The notes under the pieces were generated by a model. The model was not told the origin of the DNA, ran no database searches, and saw nothing but the letters and a program-made list of their open reading frames with translations. A DNA stretch of 43,032 nt from Candidatus Jorgensenbacteria bacterium (GTDB taxonomy: Bacteria; Patescibacteriota; Minisyncoccia; UBA6257; GWB1-50-10). Both the position numbers and the translations under genes were made by a program. The stretch covers positions 108,710 through 151,741 of the forward strand of contig JAUSHK010000003.1 of the NCBI GenBank assembly GCA_030648515.1, written 5' to 3'. This document shows, piece after piece, positions 27,385 to 33,875 of this stretch; the stretch's first letter is position 1; every line of letters starts with the position of its first letter.

Positions 27385-28827
27385 ATGCAGAAGTTCTACA
27401 TCACAACTTCAATCGCGTACGTAAATGCGCCGCCGCATATCGGTTTCGCACTTGAGTCAATCCAGGCGGATGTTGCCGCACGGTATCATCGCGCAAAAGG
27501 GGAGAAAGTTTTTTTCTTGACCGGCACTGACGAGCATGGCTCCAAAGTGGCGCGAAGCGCCGAAAAGGCAGGACTCACGCCGCGGGAATTTACTGATAAG
27601 ATTTCAGAAAAATTCGAAGCTTTAAAAGAAGCGCTGAATCTGTCATGGGATGACTTTATCCGCACGACTGATAAGGAGCGCCACTGGCCGAACGTGGAGA
27701 TGATTTGGAAAAAATTTATTGACGCGGGCGATATTTATAAAAAAACGTACGAAGGATTATATTGCGTTGGGCACGAAGCGTTTGTAACAGAAAAAGATTT
27801 AGTGGACGGAAAATGCGCTGACCATCAGACGAAGCCGGAGGTGATTAAAGAAGAGAATTATTTTTTCAAACTTTCTAAATATGCGGATGTCGTCGCGAAA
27901 AAAATTGAAAGCGGAGAAATTGAGGTAATTCCGGAAACTCGCAAAAATGAAATCCTCTCATTCATCAAGCAGGGAGTCACGGATATAAGTTTTTCACGCC
28001 CCAGTAAGACGCTCTCATGGGGGATTCCGGTCCCCGGCGACGATAGCCAGACGATTTATGTATGGGCAGACGCGCTTACAAACTACCTTTCCCCCAAGGA
28101 ATTTTGGCCTGCTGATGTACATATGATTGGAAAAGACATTCTACGCTTCCACGCGCTCTACTGGCCGGCGATGCTGATTTCCGCGGGCATCGAGCTTCCA
28201 AAAAAGATTTTTGTTCATGGATTTATAACATCCAACGGGCAGAAAATGTCTAAAACAATCGGAAATGTCGTTGACCCATTCGCGCTTGTTGAAAAATATG
28301 GAACTGACGCGGTTAGATATTTTTTGCTCCGCGAAATTCCAGCGTACGGCGACGGCGATTTTACGGTTCAAAAATTTGAAGAACGATATAACGGCGATCT
28401 TGCAAACGGCTTAGGGAACTTTACTGCGCGCGTCTTAACGCTAGGCAGCCAGCTCGGGGAAATAGAAGCTGACGGAAATATACGCGAGTGGCTGCGAAAA
28501 GAAGTTTCGGAAGAAATTGAAAAAACCCGCGGATTGGTCGCGAAAAAAATTGAAGAATTTAAATTTCACGAAGCGCTCGCCGATATCTGGGCGCTCATCG
28601 GGTTCGGTGACAGATTAGTGAACGAAGAAAAGCCGTGGGCGATAAAAGACGAAAAGGAAAAGAAAAAAATCCTCGTGAATTTAATCGTCTTACTCGATAA
28701 CATCTCGGCAATGATAGCGCCGTTTCTGCCGGAAGCGTCGGAAAAAATCACAAAAAGCATTGTCTGGAAAAACGAAAAAACGCTCGCAATAAAAAAAGGC
28801 GAGGTTTTATTCCCTCGCCTGCAATAG
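27385..28827 (+). CDS. metG: Methionyl-tRNA synthetase
   Basis: FYITTSIAYVNAPPHIGFALESIQAD, FLTGTDEHGSK, NGQKMSKTIGNVVDP. Confidence 0.96.
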   Translation: MQKFYITTSIAYVNAPPHIGFALESIQADVAARYHRAKGEKVFFLTGTDEHGSKVARSAEKAGLTPREFTDKISEKFEALKEALNLSWDDFIRTTDKERHWPNVEMIWKKFIDAGDIYKKTYEGLYCVGHEAFVTEKDLVDGKCADHQTKPEVIKEENYFFKLSKYADVVAKKIESGEIEVIPETRKNEILSFIKQGVTDISFSRPSKTLSWGIPVPGDDSQTIYVWADALTNYLSPKEFWPADVHMIGKDILRFHALYWPAMLISAGIELPKKIFVHGFITSNGQKMSKTIGNVVDPFALVEKYGTDAVRYFLLREIPAYGDGDFTVQKFEERYNGDLANGLGNFTARVLTLGSQLGEIEADGNIREWLRKEVSEEIEKTRGLVAKKIEEFKFHEALADIWALIGFGDRLVNEEKPWAIKDEKEKKKILVNLIVLLDNISAMIAPFLPEASEKITKSIVWKNEKTLAIKKGEVLFPRLQ

Positions 28828-28828
28828 A

Positions 28829-28942
28829 ATGGAAATAAAGTTCATAGATACCCACATTCACCCCGTTAGAAATCGCGCCCGCGCGCAGCGCGCCCAAAGG
28901 GCCTATGGGCGGGCGATTTCTAACGGGGCAAGCGCGACATGA
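28829..28942 (+). pseudogene. Short ORF with TatD-like N-terminus interrupted by the CCCCGTTAGAAAT repeat
   Basis: Translates MEIKFIDTHIH then the repeat (PVRNRARAQRAQRAYGRAISNGASAT*), ending in ATGA overlap with the next start. Confidence 0.5.
28861..28928. repeat. Inverted repeat element, CCCCGTTAGAAAT...ATTTCTAACGGGG family, copy B
   Basis: CCCCGTTAGAAATCGC (28861-28876) / GCGATTTCTAACGGGG (28913-28928), perfect 16-bp arms. Confidence 0.9.
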
Positions 28943-29778
28943 GAACACTAATGTTTATTGATTGTCATACTCATACCCAGTTCTCGGCGTTTGACAGCGA
29001 CCGCGCCGCGGTAGTACGCCGGGCGCTTGATGCCGGAGTTGCGATGGTAAATGTCGGAACAAAAAAAGAAACATCGCAATCAGCGATTCTACTCGCGCAC
29101 TCGTATGAAAATGTATATGCGGCAATCGGCTTGCACCCGATTCACGCGAGCCATTCGGAAAGCGACCCGGAAGAGCTAAAGCGCGGAGAAGCGAATCCGG
29201 AAGAAGGATTTGACTATGAATTTTATAAAAAACTAGCAGGCGACGATAAGGTTGTCGCGATAGGCGAGTGCGGGCTGGATTACTATAGAATTCAAGAAGA
29301 CATTGAAGAAGTCAAGAAAAAACAAAAAGACATTTTCATTCAACAGATTCAGCTCGCGTATGAAGTCAAAAAACCGCTCATGATTCATTGTCGCTCGGCT
29401 CTACAGGACCTTATAGAACTACTCACTACCAACTACTCACTACTCACTTCTCCTCCAGGCATCATGCATTTTTTCTCCGGGACAACAGACGAGGCAAAAA
29501 AACTGCTTGATATGGGATTCTACTTCACATTCGGCGGTGTTGTTACATTTACCAGCGATTATGATGAGGTTGTGAAAATAGTCCCGATGGATAGGATTCT
29601 TTCCGAAACCGACGCGCCATATGTTGCGCCGATTCCATACAGAGGTAAGCGCAACGAGCCGGCGTACGTTCTAGAAGTCGTCAAAAAACTTGCCGAACTC
29701 AAAAAAGTTTCCGTTGAAACAATAGCAGAGAGAATTTTAGAGAACGCGGAGTCTGTTTTTTGCGTTGAATCGCAATAA
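28939..29778 (+). CDS. TatD family metal-dependent hydrolase
   Basis: MFIDCHTHTQFSAFDSDRAAVVRRALDAGV, AIGLHPIHA, VAIGECGLDYYR, MIHCRSA, LSETDAPYVAP. Confidence 0.93.
   Translation: MRTLMFIDCHTHTQFSAFDSDRAAVVRRALDAGVAMVNVGTKKETSQSAILLAHSYENVYAAIGLHPIHASHSESDPEELKRGEANPEEGFDYEFYKKLAGDDKVVAIGECGLDYYRIQEDIEEVKKKQKDIFIQQIQLAYEVKKPLMIHCRSALQDLIELLTTNYSLLTSPPGIMHFFSGTTDEAKKLLDMGFYFTFGGVVTFTSDYDEVVKIVPMDRILSETDAPYVAPIPYRGKRNEPAYVLEVVKKLAELKKVSVETIAERILENAESVFCVESQ
29418..29449 (+). repeat. ACTACTCACTACCAACTACTCACTACTCACTT inside tatD
   Basis: Encodes LLTTNYSLLTS in frame. Confidence 0.85.
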
Positions 29779-29833: not shown

Positions 29834-30502
29834 ATGCAAGCTGTTATATTAGCCGCCGGATTAGGAACCAGGATGAAAGGGCTTACATCAGACACGCCAA
29901 AGCCTCTTCTTAAAGTTGGCGGAAAAACCTTACTAGAGCACAAATTAGATCGCTTGCCCAATGAAGTAAACGAGATAATTATCGTGGTTGGATACCTGGG
30001 AGATAGAATAAAAGAGCTTTTAGGGAGCGAATATGCAGGCAGAAAAATCTCTTATGTGGAGCAAAAAGAACTTTTAGGCACCGGACACGCGTTAAGTTTA
30101 TGCAAAAAAAAATTATCCGGTAAATTTTTGGTTTTAAACGGCGACGATTTATATGCTAAAGAAGATTTGACGGAACTCATTAAACACGATTTAGCACTCT
30201 TGACTTGGGAAGTGCCTCAAGACGAGCGGGGAAGGAAAGTCGCGGAAGTTAGGATGGATAGTTCAGGCGCACTATCCGATATTGTGGAGGGCCAGCCCGC
30301 CAAAAAGGGCACACTTTTTAACGCGGGCGCGTATGTTTTGGACGAAAGATACTTTAATTATTCTCTTCAATTAGCCACGCCAGGCAAAAAAGAGCTTGGG
30401 CTGCCTCAAACCATGCTCCAAATGCTAAAAGACGGGTGCAAAATAAAAATCGTACGCGCCACTTGGTGGAAGCCAATCACCAGCCCGGAGGATTTGGCGT
30501 AA
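29834..30502 (+). CDS. Nucleotidyltransferase (sugar-1-phosphate type)
   Basis: MQAVILAAGLGTRMKGLTSDTPKPLLKVGGKTLLEHKLD, VLNGDDLY. Confidence 0.88.
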   Translation: MQAVILAAGLGTRMKGLTSDTPKPLLKVGGKTLLEHKLDRLPNEVNEIIIVVGYLGDRIKELLGSEYAGRKISYVEQKELLGTGHALSLCKKKLSGKFLVLNGDDLYAKEDLTELIKHDLALLTWEVPQDERGRKVAEVRMDSSGALSDIVEGQPAKKGTLFNAGAYVLDERYFNYSLQLATPGKKELGLPQTMLQMLKDGCKIKIVRATWWKPITSPEDLA

Positions 30503-30917: not shown

Positions 30918-33875
30918 ATGAAAAAATACGACCATAAAAAAATAGAAGCTAGATGGCAAAAGGCGTGGCAAGATGAAAAAATCTACGAGCCAGATTTAAA
31001 AAAGGCAGAAAAGCCCTTCGGCACTACTCAGGGTAAACCGTTTTATAACCTAATGATGTTCCCGTACCCGTCAGGGGAGGGATTGCACGTGGGCCACGCG
31101 TTTGCGTTTACAGGAGCGGATGTCTACGGTCGCAAAAAACGCATGGAGGGGCGCGATGTATTTGAGCCTATGGGATATGACTCGTTCGGAATTCACGCGG
31201 AAAACTACGCGATAAAAATAAACGAGCACCCGAAAGAACTGACGAGAAAAACAACGGAACGTTATGAAGCACAGCTCAAAAGCATGGGTATTGGATACGC
31301 GTGGGACGAGCGCCTATTAACATCCGATGCTGAGTATTACAAATGGACGCAGTGGATTTTTATGCAGATGTGGAAACACGGGCTCGCGTACCGAAAAAAA
31401 CAGGCGGTGAATTGGTGTCCATCCTGCAAAACAGTCCTCGCGGACGAACAGGTCATTCTTCGCGGAGTGAAGAATGATCCCGAGCAAATGCGAGGGATAG
31501 GTGTTTGCGAACGCTGTAGTTCCGTGGTGAAGAAAAAGAATCTTGAGCAGTGGTTTTTCAGAATCACGAAGTACGCGGAAAAACTGCTTCAAAATCTTGA
31601 GAAAATCGACTGGTCGGAAAAAATAAAAATCGCCCAACGAAATTGGATTGGGCGTTCCGAGGGGGCATCAATAAGATTTCGTATCAAGTATAAAGTATCA
31701 AGTATCAAGAGTTCCGATGAATATATTGAGGTGTTCACAACGCGGCCCGATACATTATTCGGCGCGACGTATATGGTGCTTGCGCCAGAGCATGAACTAA
31801 TCTCAAATCTCAAATCTAAAATCTCAAATTTTAAAGAGGTAGAGAATTATGTCAAAAAAGCACGTTCAAAAACGGAGGAGGAACGGACTGTAGAAACAAA
31901 GGATAAAACAGGCGTTGAACTGAAGGGAATAAAAGCGATTAATCCGACGAATAACGAGGAAATTCCCATTTTTGCCGCGGACTACGTTTTATCCGGCTAT
32001 GGCACGGGCGCGATTATGGCGGTGCCAGCGCATGATGAGCGCGACTGGGAATTCGCAAAGAAGTTCGATATAGAAATCCGCAATGTCATTGACCCAGTTT
32101 TTAGCACATTTGAAGGAAAGACTGAAGAAAGAGAAAGAGTAGTTGCGCTCGTTGAGGATGGCGACAAAGTACTGACGATTAACTGGGGGCCGGGAAAAGG
32201 TGGTCGCTTGCTCGTCGGGGGAGGTATACAAAGTAGCGAGGGTCCAGTTGAAACGGCGCAGCGGGAAATAGCCGAAGAAGCCGGGTACACGCACGTGAAG
32301 TTGGCGGAAATCGGGCAGGAAACTGTTCACTATAAATATTTTTCCCACAACAAAAAAGCCGGATTTCATGCGCATGTAAAAATTCTGCATTTCAAGCTTG
32401 AAAAAAAAGAACGCGTTGCGCAAAAACTCGAAGATAATGAAAAGGGCTGGTTTGTTGTAGAGTGGATTTCAAAAGAACAGGCCGGCAGGGAAATTATTGA
32501 CCCGCTTCATAATTACGTGTTTCAGAAATTTATTGCGGGAAAGTGCTATGCCGGCACGGGCATAATGGCTAATTCTGGAAAATTTTCAGGGATGGATTCA
32601 GAAGAAGCGAAATGGGCAATTACAAAACTTGTCGGAGGCGAACGGAAAATCCAGTATCGGCTTCGTGACTGGCTTATCTCGCGCCAACGGTACTGGGGCG
32701 CGCCGATTCCGATGATTTTCTGCGACACGTGCGCCGCGGCCGGAAAAGGAGAATATCCGTCAGCTAGCGGAGAAATGCATGGTTGGTACGCGGTGCCTGA
32801 AAAAGATTTGCCGGTTGAGCTTCCATTTATAAAAGAATTCCGCCCGCAGGGGAAGAATGAATCTCCGCTCGCGTCGGTAAAAGAATTTTATGAAACAAAA
32901 TGCCCAGCGTGCGGAGCGAAAGCGCGACGTGAAACGGATGTCTCGGATACGTTCTTAGATTCCGCGTGGTATTTCTTAAGATATCCAAGCGTCCACAATG
33001 AAAAAGAAGCATGGGATAAGGCGCTCACGAAAAAATGGCTGCCGGTCAATATGTATATCGGCGGAGCGGAACACGCGGTGCTTCACCTGCTCTACTCGCG
33101 GTTTGTCACGATGGCATTTCACGACTTCGGGATACTTGATTTTGAAGAGCCGTTTTCGGTATTCCGCGCGCACGGGCTTCTTATCAAAGACGGCGCGAAA
33201 ATGTCCAAATCAAAGGGAAACGTTGTAAATCCTGATGAATATGTCAAAAATTTCGGCGCGGATGCATTTCGTATGTACTTAATGTTTCTCGCGCCGTTCG
33301 AACAGGGCGGTGATTTCCGCGACCAGGGCATTTTAGGAATCACTCGCTTTTTGGATCGCGTATGGAAGATGGGAATGGAGGTTTCCGAAGGCAAGGAAAT
33401 AGAAAAAACAAACAGCGAAACCGAAACACTCATTCATCAAACTATAAAAAAAGTTACGGGGGACATTGATGGATTGCAATACAACACAGCAATCTCCGCG
33501 CTTATGGTTTTTTTGAGCGGACTTGAAAAAGACGGAGCAAATCGCGAAAACTTTGAAATTCTCTTAAAACTTCTCGCGTCGTTCGCCCCGCACATCACAG
33601 AAGAATTATGGTACGAACTTGGTAATAAAACTTCAATTCATACGTCAGCATGGCCGAAATTTGATGCAGCGCTTGCGCTCGGCGACACCATTGATTTTGT
33701 GATTCAGGTAAACGGAAAACATCGCGGAACGATAAACATCCGCCGCGGCATCGGGCAGGACGAAGCGGAAAAGCTTGCGCGGGAAACAGAGAAAGTAAAA
33801 ACGGCGCTTGCTGGCAAAAATGTGCATAAGGTTGTCTTTGTTCCGGATCGCCTAATTAATTTTGTAGTCCAATAG
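30918..33875 (+). CDS. leuS: Leucyl-tRNA synthetase with inserted Nudix domain
   Basis: MMFPYPSGEGLHVGHAFAFTGADVYGRKKRMEGRDVFEPMGYDSFGIHAENYA; QRNWIGRSEGA; GAKMSKSKGNVVNPDEYV. Likely ATG start at 30918. Confidence 0.96.
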   Translation: MKKYDHKKIEARWQKAWQDEKIYEPDLKKAEKPFGTTQGKPFYNLMMFPYPSGEGLHVGHAFAFTGADVYGRKKRMEGRDVFEPMGYDSFGIHAENYAIKINEHPKELTRKTTERYEAQLKSMGIGYAWDERLLTSDAEYYKWTQWIFMQMWKHGLAYRKKQAVNWCPSCKTVLADEQVILRGVKNDPEQMRGIGVCERCSSVVKKKNLEQWFFRITKYAEKLLQNLEKIDWSEKIKIAQRNWIGRSEGASIRFRIKYKVSSIKSSDEYIEVFTTRPDTLFGATYMVLAPEHELISNLKSKISNFKEVENYVKKARSKTEEERTVETKDKTGVELKGIKAINPTNNEEIPIFAADYVLSGYGTGAIMAVPAHDERDWEFAKKFDIEIRNVIDPVFSTFEGKTEERERVVALVEDGDKVLTINWGPGKGGRLLVGGGIQSSEGPVETAQREIAEEAGYTHVKLAEIGQETVHYKYFSHNKKAGFHAHVKILHFKLEKKERVAQKLEDNEKGWFVVEWISKEQAGREIIDPLHNYVFQKFIAGKCYAGTGIMANSGKFSGMDSEEAKWAITKLVGGERKIQYRLRDWLISRQRYWGAPIPMIFCDTCAAAGKGEYPSASGEMHGWYAVPEKDLPVELPFIKEFRPQGKNESPLASVKEFYETKCPACGAKARRETDVSDTFLDSAWYFLRYPSVHNEKEAWDKALTKKWLPVNMYIGGAEHAVLHLLYSRFVTMAFHDFGILDFEEPFSVFRAHGLLIKDGAKMSKSKGNVVNPDEYVKNFGADAFRMYLMFLAPFEQGGDFRDQGILGITRFLDRVWKMGMEVSEGKEIEKTNSETETLIHQTIKKVTGDIDGLQYNTAISALMVFLSGLEKDGANRENFEILLKLLASFAPHITEELWYELGNKTSIHTSAWPKFDAALALGDTIDFVIQVNGKHRGTINIRRGIGQDEAEKLARETEKVKTALAGKNVHKVVFVPDRLINFVVQ
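31681..31709 (+). repeat. GTATCAAGTATAAAGTATCAAGTATCAAG tract inside leuS
   Basis: Simple tandem pattern, in frame (YKVSSIKSS). Confidence 0.7.
31801..31832 (+). repeat. TCTCAAATCTCAAATCTAAAATCTCAAATTTT tract inside leuS
   Basis: Simple tandem pattern, in frame (ISNLKSKISNFK). Confidence 0.7.

Follow-up and report, generated by a model that had tools for sequence, protein, structure and literature searches.

A mobile Nudix hydrolase domain lodged in the editing domain of leucyl-tRNA synthetase recurs in Patescibacteria and Bacillota

The leuS gene of a Candidatus Jorgensenbacteria bacterium encodes a leucyl-tRNA synthetase (LeuRS) whose CP1 editing domain is interrupted by a stretch of residues carrying a Nudix box. 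Is this stretch a genuine enzyme domain, how did it come to lie within a synthetase, and on what would it act there? The window analysed here, a stretch of 43,032 nucleotides, is part of a 690.8-kb genome. Within it, leuS (30918..33875, on the + strand, as are all of its parts described below; 985 aa) was delimited from the ORF list, TIGR00396 and an alignment with LeuRS structures in the PDB. Its reading frame is intact and scores 886 bits against the NCBIfam model leuS_bact TIGR00396 (cutoff 548). The translation contains HIGH-type and KMSKS motifs, the latter (33198..33212) being invariant or near invariant in the LeuRS alignment. The gene belongs to a run with MetRS-like (27385-28827), TatD-like (28939-29778) and nucleotidyltransferase-like (29834-30502) genes, named here from their sequences.

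The match to the editing-domain family PF13603 covers the first part of CP1 (aa 241-397, 31638..32108; Pfam E=9e-61) and ends at position 146 of the 185 profile positions, which indicates that the Nudix domain breaks the editing domain near its end. In the PDB alignment, residues 1-363 of Thermus thermophilus LeuRS correspond to residues 1-392 of the window protein and residues 375-876 to residue 542 onward. An insert of about 150 aa (aa 393-541 approximately, 32094..32540) thus takes the place of about 11 T. thermophilus residues (364-374) in a loop that we call site B, in agreement with the PF00293 match and the AlphaFold model; the editing domain then continues with CYAGTGIMANSGKFSG (32541..32620). 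The earlier note had located the insert at about 32092-32550; the location held, and the extent is refined to the limits given here. In the AlphaFold model of the full LeuRS (mean pLDDT 88.7), both the synthetase and the Nudix part are confident. NUDIX is the sole Pfam match in the insert, with no HINT splicing block or homing endonuclease there, which does not fit an intein or other self-splicing element. Furthermore, homologous inserts occur at the same site in dozens of genomes, excluding chance and an assembly artefact. The interrupted PF13603 match, the PF00293 match and these homologues together bear out the proposal that a Nudix domain lies within the LeuRS editing domain.

Searched alone, the insert (32088-32543) matches the Pfam family NUDIX PF00293 with E=3.1e-12 and 47.1 bits (gathering cutoff 21.1), so that the profile search suggested earlier does assign it to Nudix; in the full-length protein the match spans aa 406-532. 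The box GGIQSSEGPVETAQREIAEEAGY (aa 435-457, 32220..32288) fits the consensus GX5EX7REUXEEXGU exactly, as had been claimed. AlphaFold predicts a confident Nudix fold for the isolated domain (mean pLDDT 90.7), and the nearest folds in the PDB are Nudix structures, with E-values down to 2e-10. These nearest structures are functionally mixed and include 2azw (activity unknown), ADP-ribose pyrophosphatase, RppH, NudB and the effector AvrM14. The X-loop, which sets specificity in Nudix domains (PMC5389931), was placed by motif counts at aa 474-483 (32337..32366), where an aromatic pair is followed by Lys479. The X-loop motif was found in 81 of 90 located inserts and in all eight LeuRS-type free copies, as against 2 of 26 generic Nudix proteins of the same phylum; the collection was scanned with alignment A3, A1 being too diverse for this, and A3 picks sequences with F[FY]AAHK or LxWKx[HQ]PW, so that motif counts among its matches are biased while residue conservation over 65 inserts is unaffected.

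Those 65 inserts (64 from LeuRS and one from IleRS; mean column identity 35-43%) retain the residues of the box. The first Gly is present in 65/65, the first Glu in 56/65 and the Arg in 58/65, followed by the later Glu residues in 65/65, 63/65 and 64/65 (100, 97 and 98%) and the final Gly in 65/65. The catalytic Glu residues, whose loss from homologous inserts would have spoken against the assignment, are therefore conserved. The insert is under purifying selection, with an omega of 0.04-0.21 in pairwise codon comparisons that is comparable to that of the LeuRS core. Such a pattern is what would be expected for selection on catalysis, and the insert is most likely a catalytically competent Nudix pyrophosphohydrolase, judging by its residues.

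How widespread the fusion is across Patescibacteria, a count that the earlier note had called for, was addressed in several searches, and the retrieved carrier ORFs were examined for the presence and position of the Nudix domain. With the insert itself as the query, 10 of 149 relatives proved to have a fused LeuRS ORF, and a profile of inserts recovered the fusion from at least 50 genomes of the 380 sampled (about 14%), scattered over the phylum. Carrier ORFs measure about 650-1800 aa, whereas an ordinary LeuRS of the phylum has 790-880 aa. Among GTDB representatives, 80 loci were found, about 72 of which are LeuRS fusions. Their patescibacterial carriers are Parcubacteria, Kaiser-, Taylor-, Zambryski-, Nomura-, Moranii- and Saccharibacteria, and Bacillota also carry the fusion (Clostridia, Ruminococcus sp., several Bacilli and Erysipelotrichaceae, i.e. 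gut Firmicutes, with Clostridia and Bacilli present as MAGs). In all but a few carriers the insert occupies the site B loop. Five loci (L086, L092, L121, L205 and L227) have a Nudix domain in a different loop, termed site A, which separates the zinc region from the TTRPDT strand; two LeuRS (L086 and G526) have two Nudix copies. We found no published account of Nudix with LeuRS, or of histidine phosphatase with IleRS, in the open-licence literature. As a whole, this recurrent enzyme-in-enzyme architecture is real and apparently not previously described.

In a LeuRS phylogeny from which the insert had been left out (FastTree, local support only), the Nudix state switches no fewer than 28 times, and the Bacillota carriers fall among the LeuRS of Bacillota, on two distinct backbones. 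The tree of Nudix domains has one large group, 99 rows out of 129, that is set off from generic Nudix (support 84, not starred, from a short search). This main group comprises 71 of 80 patescibacterial inserts, 20 of 20 Bacillota inserts and the LeuRS-type free copies. The many state changes, combined with the membership of most inserts in one Nudix subfamily, indicate that the module moves between LeuRS genes. A recent transfer is indicated for one pair of LeuRS (L012 and L122), whose Nudix domains are 88% identical and the remainder of the proteins 63%, with most of the high identity falling at about aa 385-570 and with fewer synonymous differences in Nudix (0.52) than in the backbone (0.76). 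It is thus well supported that the LeuRS-linked Nudix is a distinct subfamily with its own X-loop signature and a mobile module between leuS genes. Inserts outside the main group (L017/L103/L105, L113/L120, L020, L114, L119 and L121) may represent separate captures, given their place on the tree.

Free-standing copies of the module were also found, and they tie it to LeuRS beyond the fusion. In one genome (G425) the LeuRS is uninterrupted, and a separate Nudix gene belonging to the LeuRS subfamily lies near leuS, about 2.4 kb upstream, following MetRS-like and TatD-like genes in the same arrangement as in the window. The TTRPDT motif of this LeuRS (L282) is degenerate (SYDSVPQT), and its AHDERD motif is kept. 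Five other genomes (G472, G242, G179, G283 and G224) have a free Nudix gene 1-4 kb downstream of a leuS without insert; these genes were considered as fusion precursors and discounted, because they sit in a nusB-Nudix-rnc cluster and because four of the five, together with that of G390, form one starred clade without the LeuRS Nudix signature. The cluster nusB-Nudix-rnc(-rpsP) near leuS is conserved in several Patescibacteria (L128-L132).

Furthermore, a stand-alone protein of some 310 aa, composed of a LeuRS CP1 editing domain and Nudix, is encoded in Ruminococcus sp. NALB_7961_7 (L231), in another Firmicutes MAG (L245) and in a patescibacterial genome (G115, read from its sequence). Its TTRPDT motif is altered to LNRPDL, LDRPDL or TDRPEV, making a deacylase function doubtful, although AHDERD retains its last Asp; the Nudix box is retained too. 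Both Firmicutes genomes also have a full LeuRS-Nudix, and the LeuRS of G115 is without Nudix. In G115 (L305, L124), a genome assigned to the same order as the window, seven in-frame TGA codons of LeuRS all fall where Trp is conserved, and the free CP1+Nudix gene likewise has TGA at two Trp positions. Judging by these codons, TGA appears to be read as Trp in this genome, with contamination possible. The phages and viral contigs searched gave no relative of the free CP1+Nudix protein, and the 10 plasmid LeuRS among the matches listed (out of 261 records) align in two segments, giving no sign of an insert. On these two results a phage or plasmid origin of the module was rejected. One plasmid of Aulosira laxa NIES-50 (AP018309.1, L281) carries a LeuRS of about 590 aa without the whole CP1 editing domain, adjoining a transposase gene.

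The classical editing site persists in the carriers. In an alignment of LeuRS with and without Nudix, the threonine-rich motif TTRPDT (aa 274-279, 31737..31754) and AHDERD (aa 371-376, 32028..32045) of the window protein are intact. The final Thr of TTRPDT (Thr252 in E. coli numbering) is kept in 98 of 99 LeuRS with Nudix and 43 of 44 without, and both Asp residues of AHDERD in 99/99 and 44/44, respectively. The Nudix domain is thus an addition to the editing site, and a replacement of that site is ruled out.

Nudix is not the only hydrolase found in these synthetases. The IleRS of the same genome (1192 aa; L172, G000:C1:32200-36300, outside the window) contains a histidine phosphatase domain (PF00300, E=1e-34) after the RERYWGTPLPIWEC region. 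Such domains occur in ORFs of 1100-1530 aa in at least 27 of 192 sampled genomes, and all 18 retrieved histidine-phosphatase ORFs above 1100 aa are IleRS. The domain is shared by many IleRS of the phylum, with two copies in some large ORFs (G240, G253, G312 and G333), and a ValRS-like ORF of 912 aa carries it as well (L302, G336:C5). Besides Nudix, other LeuRS carry Ham1, Ser_hydrolase, HAD or ASCH domains. Across LeuRS and IleRS, further inserted enzymes include Ham1/ITPase, Ser_hydrolase (alpha/beta), HAD, nucleotidyltransferase-like and ASCH domains (L201, L216, L121, L117, L122, L078, L105, L190, L200, L214 and L114), the last of these loci (G151) encoding a LeuRS of 1795 aa with several inserted enzymes. 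Nudix pairs with LeuRS in more than 100 loci, with one IleRS case. Hydrolases in the loops of both LeuRS and IleRS indicate that synthetases of the phylum commonly take up enzymes there, with a clear pairing between enzyme and synthetase.

What, then, would the Nudix domain do? The explanation that we consider best, at a probability of about 0.5, is that an active, LeuRS-linked Nudix enzyme in a CP1 surface loop carries out on-site cleaning beside the editing site, with a substrate of the ApnN type. More specifically, a competent pyrophosphohydrolase lodged in this loop would work alongside the canonical editing site and hydrolyse, on the spot, a small adenylylated or dinucleoside-polyphosphate compound that is either a by-product or an inhibitor of LeuRS. 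Since aminoacyl-tRNA synthetases make ApnA, local removal of ApnN-type compounds or related adenylates would be the first choice and the best single guess at the substrate. Among the dinucleotides, aminoacyl-AMP and oxidised nucleotides named in the earlier note, dinucleoside polyphosphates are weakly favoured. A Tyr at the X-loop position about 17 aa past the Nudix box marks ApnA hydrolases (PMC5389931). The window insert has Tyr at this position, and Phe or Tyr is found in 52 of 65 inserts (Tyr alone in 19 of 65), Phe being the commoner. For two free members of the subfamily the nearest curated Nudix family is RppH, at E-values of 6e-12 and 4e-9 that lie below the cutoff, and the window insert reaches 19.7 bits against the RppH models (cutoff 116); no curated substrate family reached its cutoff for the window protein or the tested free Nudix members. 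Ap4A hydrolases occur among the structural neighbours without standing out.

The domain might instead be non-catalytic, for example an added tRNA contact or a stabilising element, as had also been considered earlier. Some large inserts in aminoacyl-tRNA synthetases are structural, and the AlphaFold model of the domain is well folded, but metal-binding Glu residues that are nearly invariant at about 30% overall identity, along with the low omega, make this option very improbable. The position within the editing domain and the conserved catalytic residues would also suit an extra proofreading step, in which Nudix hydrolyses non-cognate aminoacyl-AMP (norvaline, isoleucine) ahead of transfer to tRNA. 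However, with the classical editing site fully conserved in carriers there is no visible need for such a step, and Nudix enzymes typically split pyrophosphate links rather than carboxyl-phosphate anhydrides, so that we give it little credence.

Two broader alternatives concern the loop and its occupants. CP1 loops may simply tolerate autonomous enzymes, with Nudix a generic house-cleaning activity uncoupled from leucylation that benefits solely from co-expression with, and protection from deletion in, an essential gene. The small genomes and the unrelated hydrolases in the same or sister synthetases (Ham1, Ser_hydrolase, HAD and ASCH in LeuRS; histidine phosphatase in IleRS) suit this explanation, but the non-random pairing described above, the use of a single dedicated Nudix subfamily instead of varied ones and the retention of a CP1 part in the free CP1+Nudix protein argue against it, and we regard it as rather unlikely. 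The module could also confer resistance by cleaving inhibitors that mimic leucyl-adenylate (agrocin-84-like Trojan horses), each synthetase being guarded by its own enzyme. Its patchy, mobile and sometimes double occurrence, the free Nudix and CP1+Nudix copies, the different hydrolase of IleRS and the listing by NCBIfam of an "exception" IleRS with a GNAT domain are consistent with such a role; yet many carrier lineages are without known exposure to inhibitors and the free CP1+Nudix protein is without phage or viral relatives, which leaves resistance an unlikely account. Beyond the on-site cleaning that we prefer for Nudix, a more speculative and tentative generalisation is that the class Ia synthetases of bacteria with small genomes are fitted with horizontally mobile hydrolases, each specific to its synthetase and acting on that synthetase's own compounds, as a new layer of quality control or immunity. 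It would include Nudix-LeuRS and histidine phosphatase-IleRS, the targets being by-products such as adenylates, inhibitors that mimic the adenylate or the acceptor end of the tRNA, and the free CP1+Nudix protein would be a trans-acting form.

These findings underscore that, in two bacterial groups far removed from each other, an essential and deeply conserved translation enzyme has repeatedly acquired at one loop a hydrolase that looks active. LeuRS-Nudix would tie aminoacylation to dinucleotide or adenylate metabolism, a natural link that is directly testable, and the insert sites offer a natural map of LeuRS loops that accept whole enzymes. A substrate specific to LeuRS chemistry would imply a hidden layer of quality control or resistance in Patescibacteria, which account for a very large and for the most part uncultured share of bacterial diversity.

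Compared with known systems, the window LeuRS shares all catalytic and editing motifs with bacterial LeuRS (TIGR00396; T. thermophilus 1h3n, E. coli 4aq7), at 37% identity to the T. thermophilus enzyme in the fold comparison, and differs in the Nudix domain that stands for those few residues near the end of CP1. With RppH and dinucleoside polyphosphate Nudix enzymes (PRK00714 models; Aq_158 Ap4A hydrolase 3i7u) the insert shares the fold, the box and the aromatic X-loop residue at about +17, whereas it lies far below the family cutoffs, has its own K..NR X-loop signature and is embedded in a synthetase. NCBIfam NF040702, an IleRS with an N-acetyltransferase (GNAT) domain treated as an exception by NCBI, likewise joins a class Ia synthetase to an added enzyme, but both partners differ, and the window protein scores 55 bits against its cutoff of 1999. 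Finally, AlaX and YbaK/ProXp are free-standing trans-editing domains, and a free editing domain exists here too; unlike them, it is a LeuRS CP1 domain with an altered TTRPDT motif, joined to Nudix.
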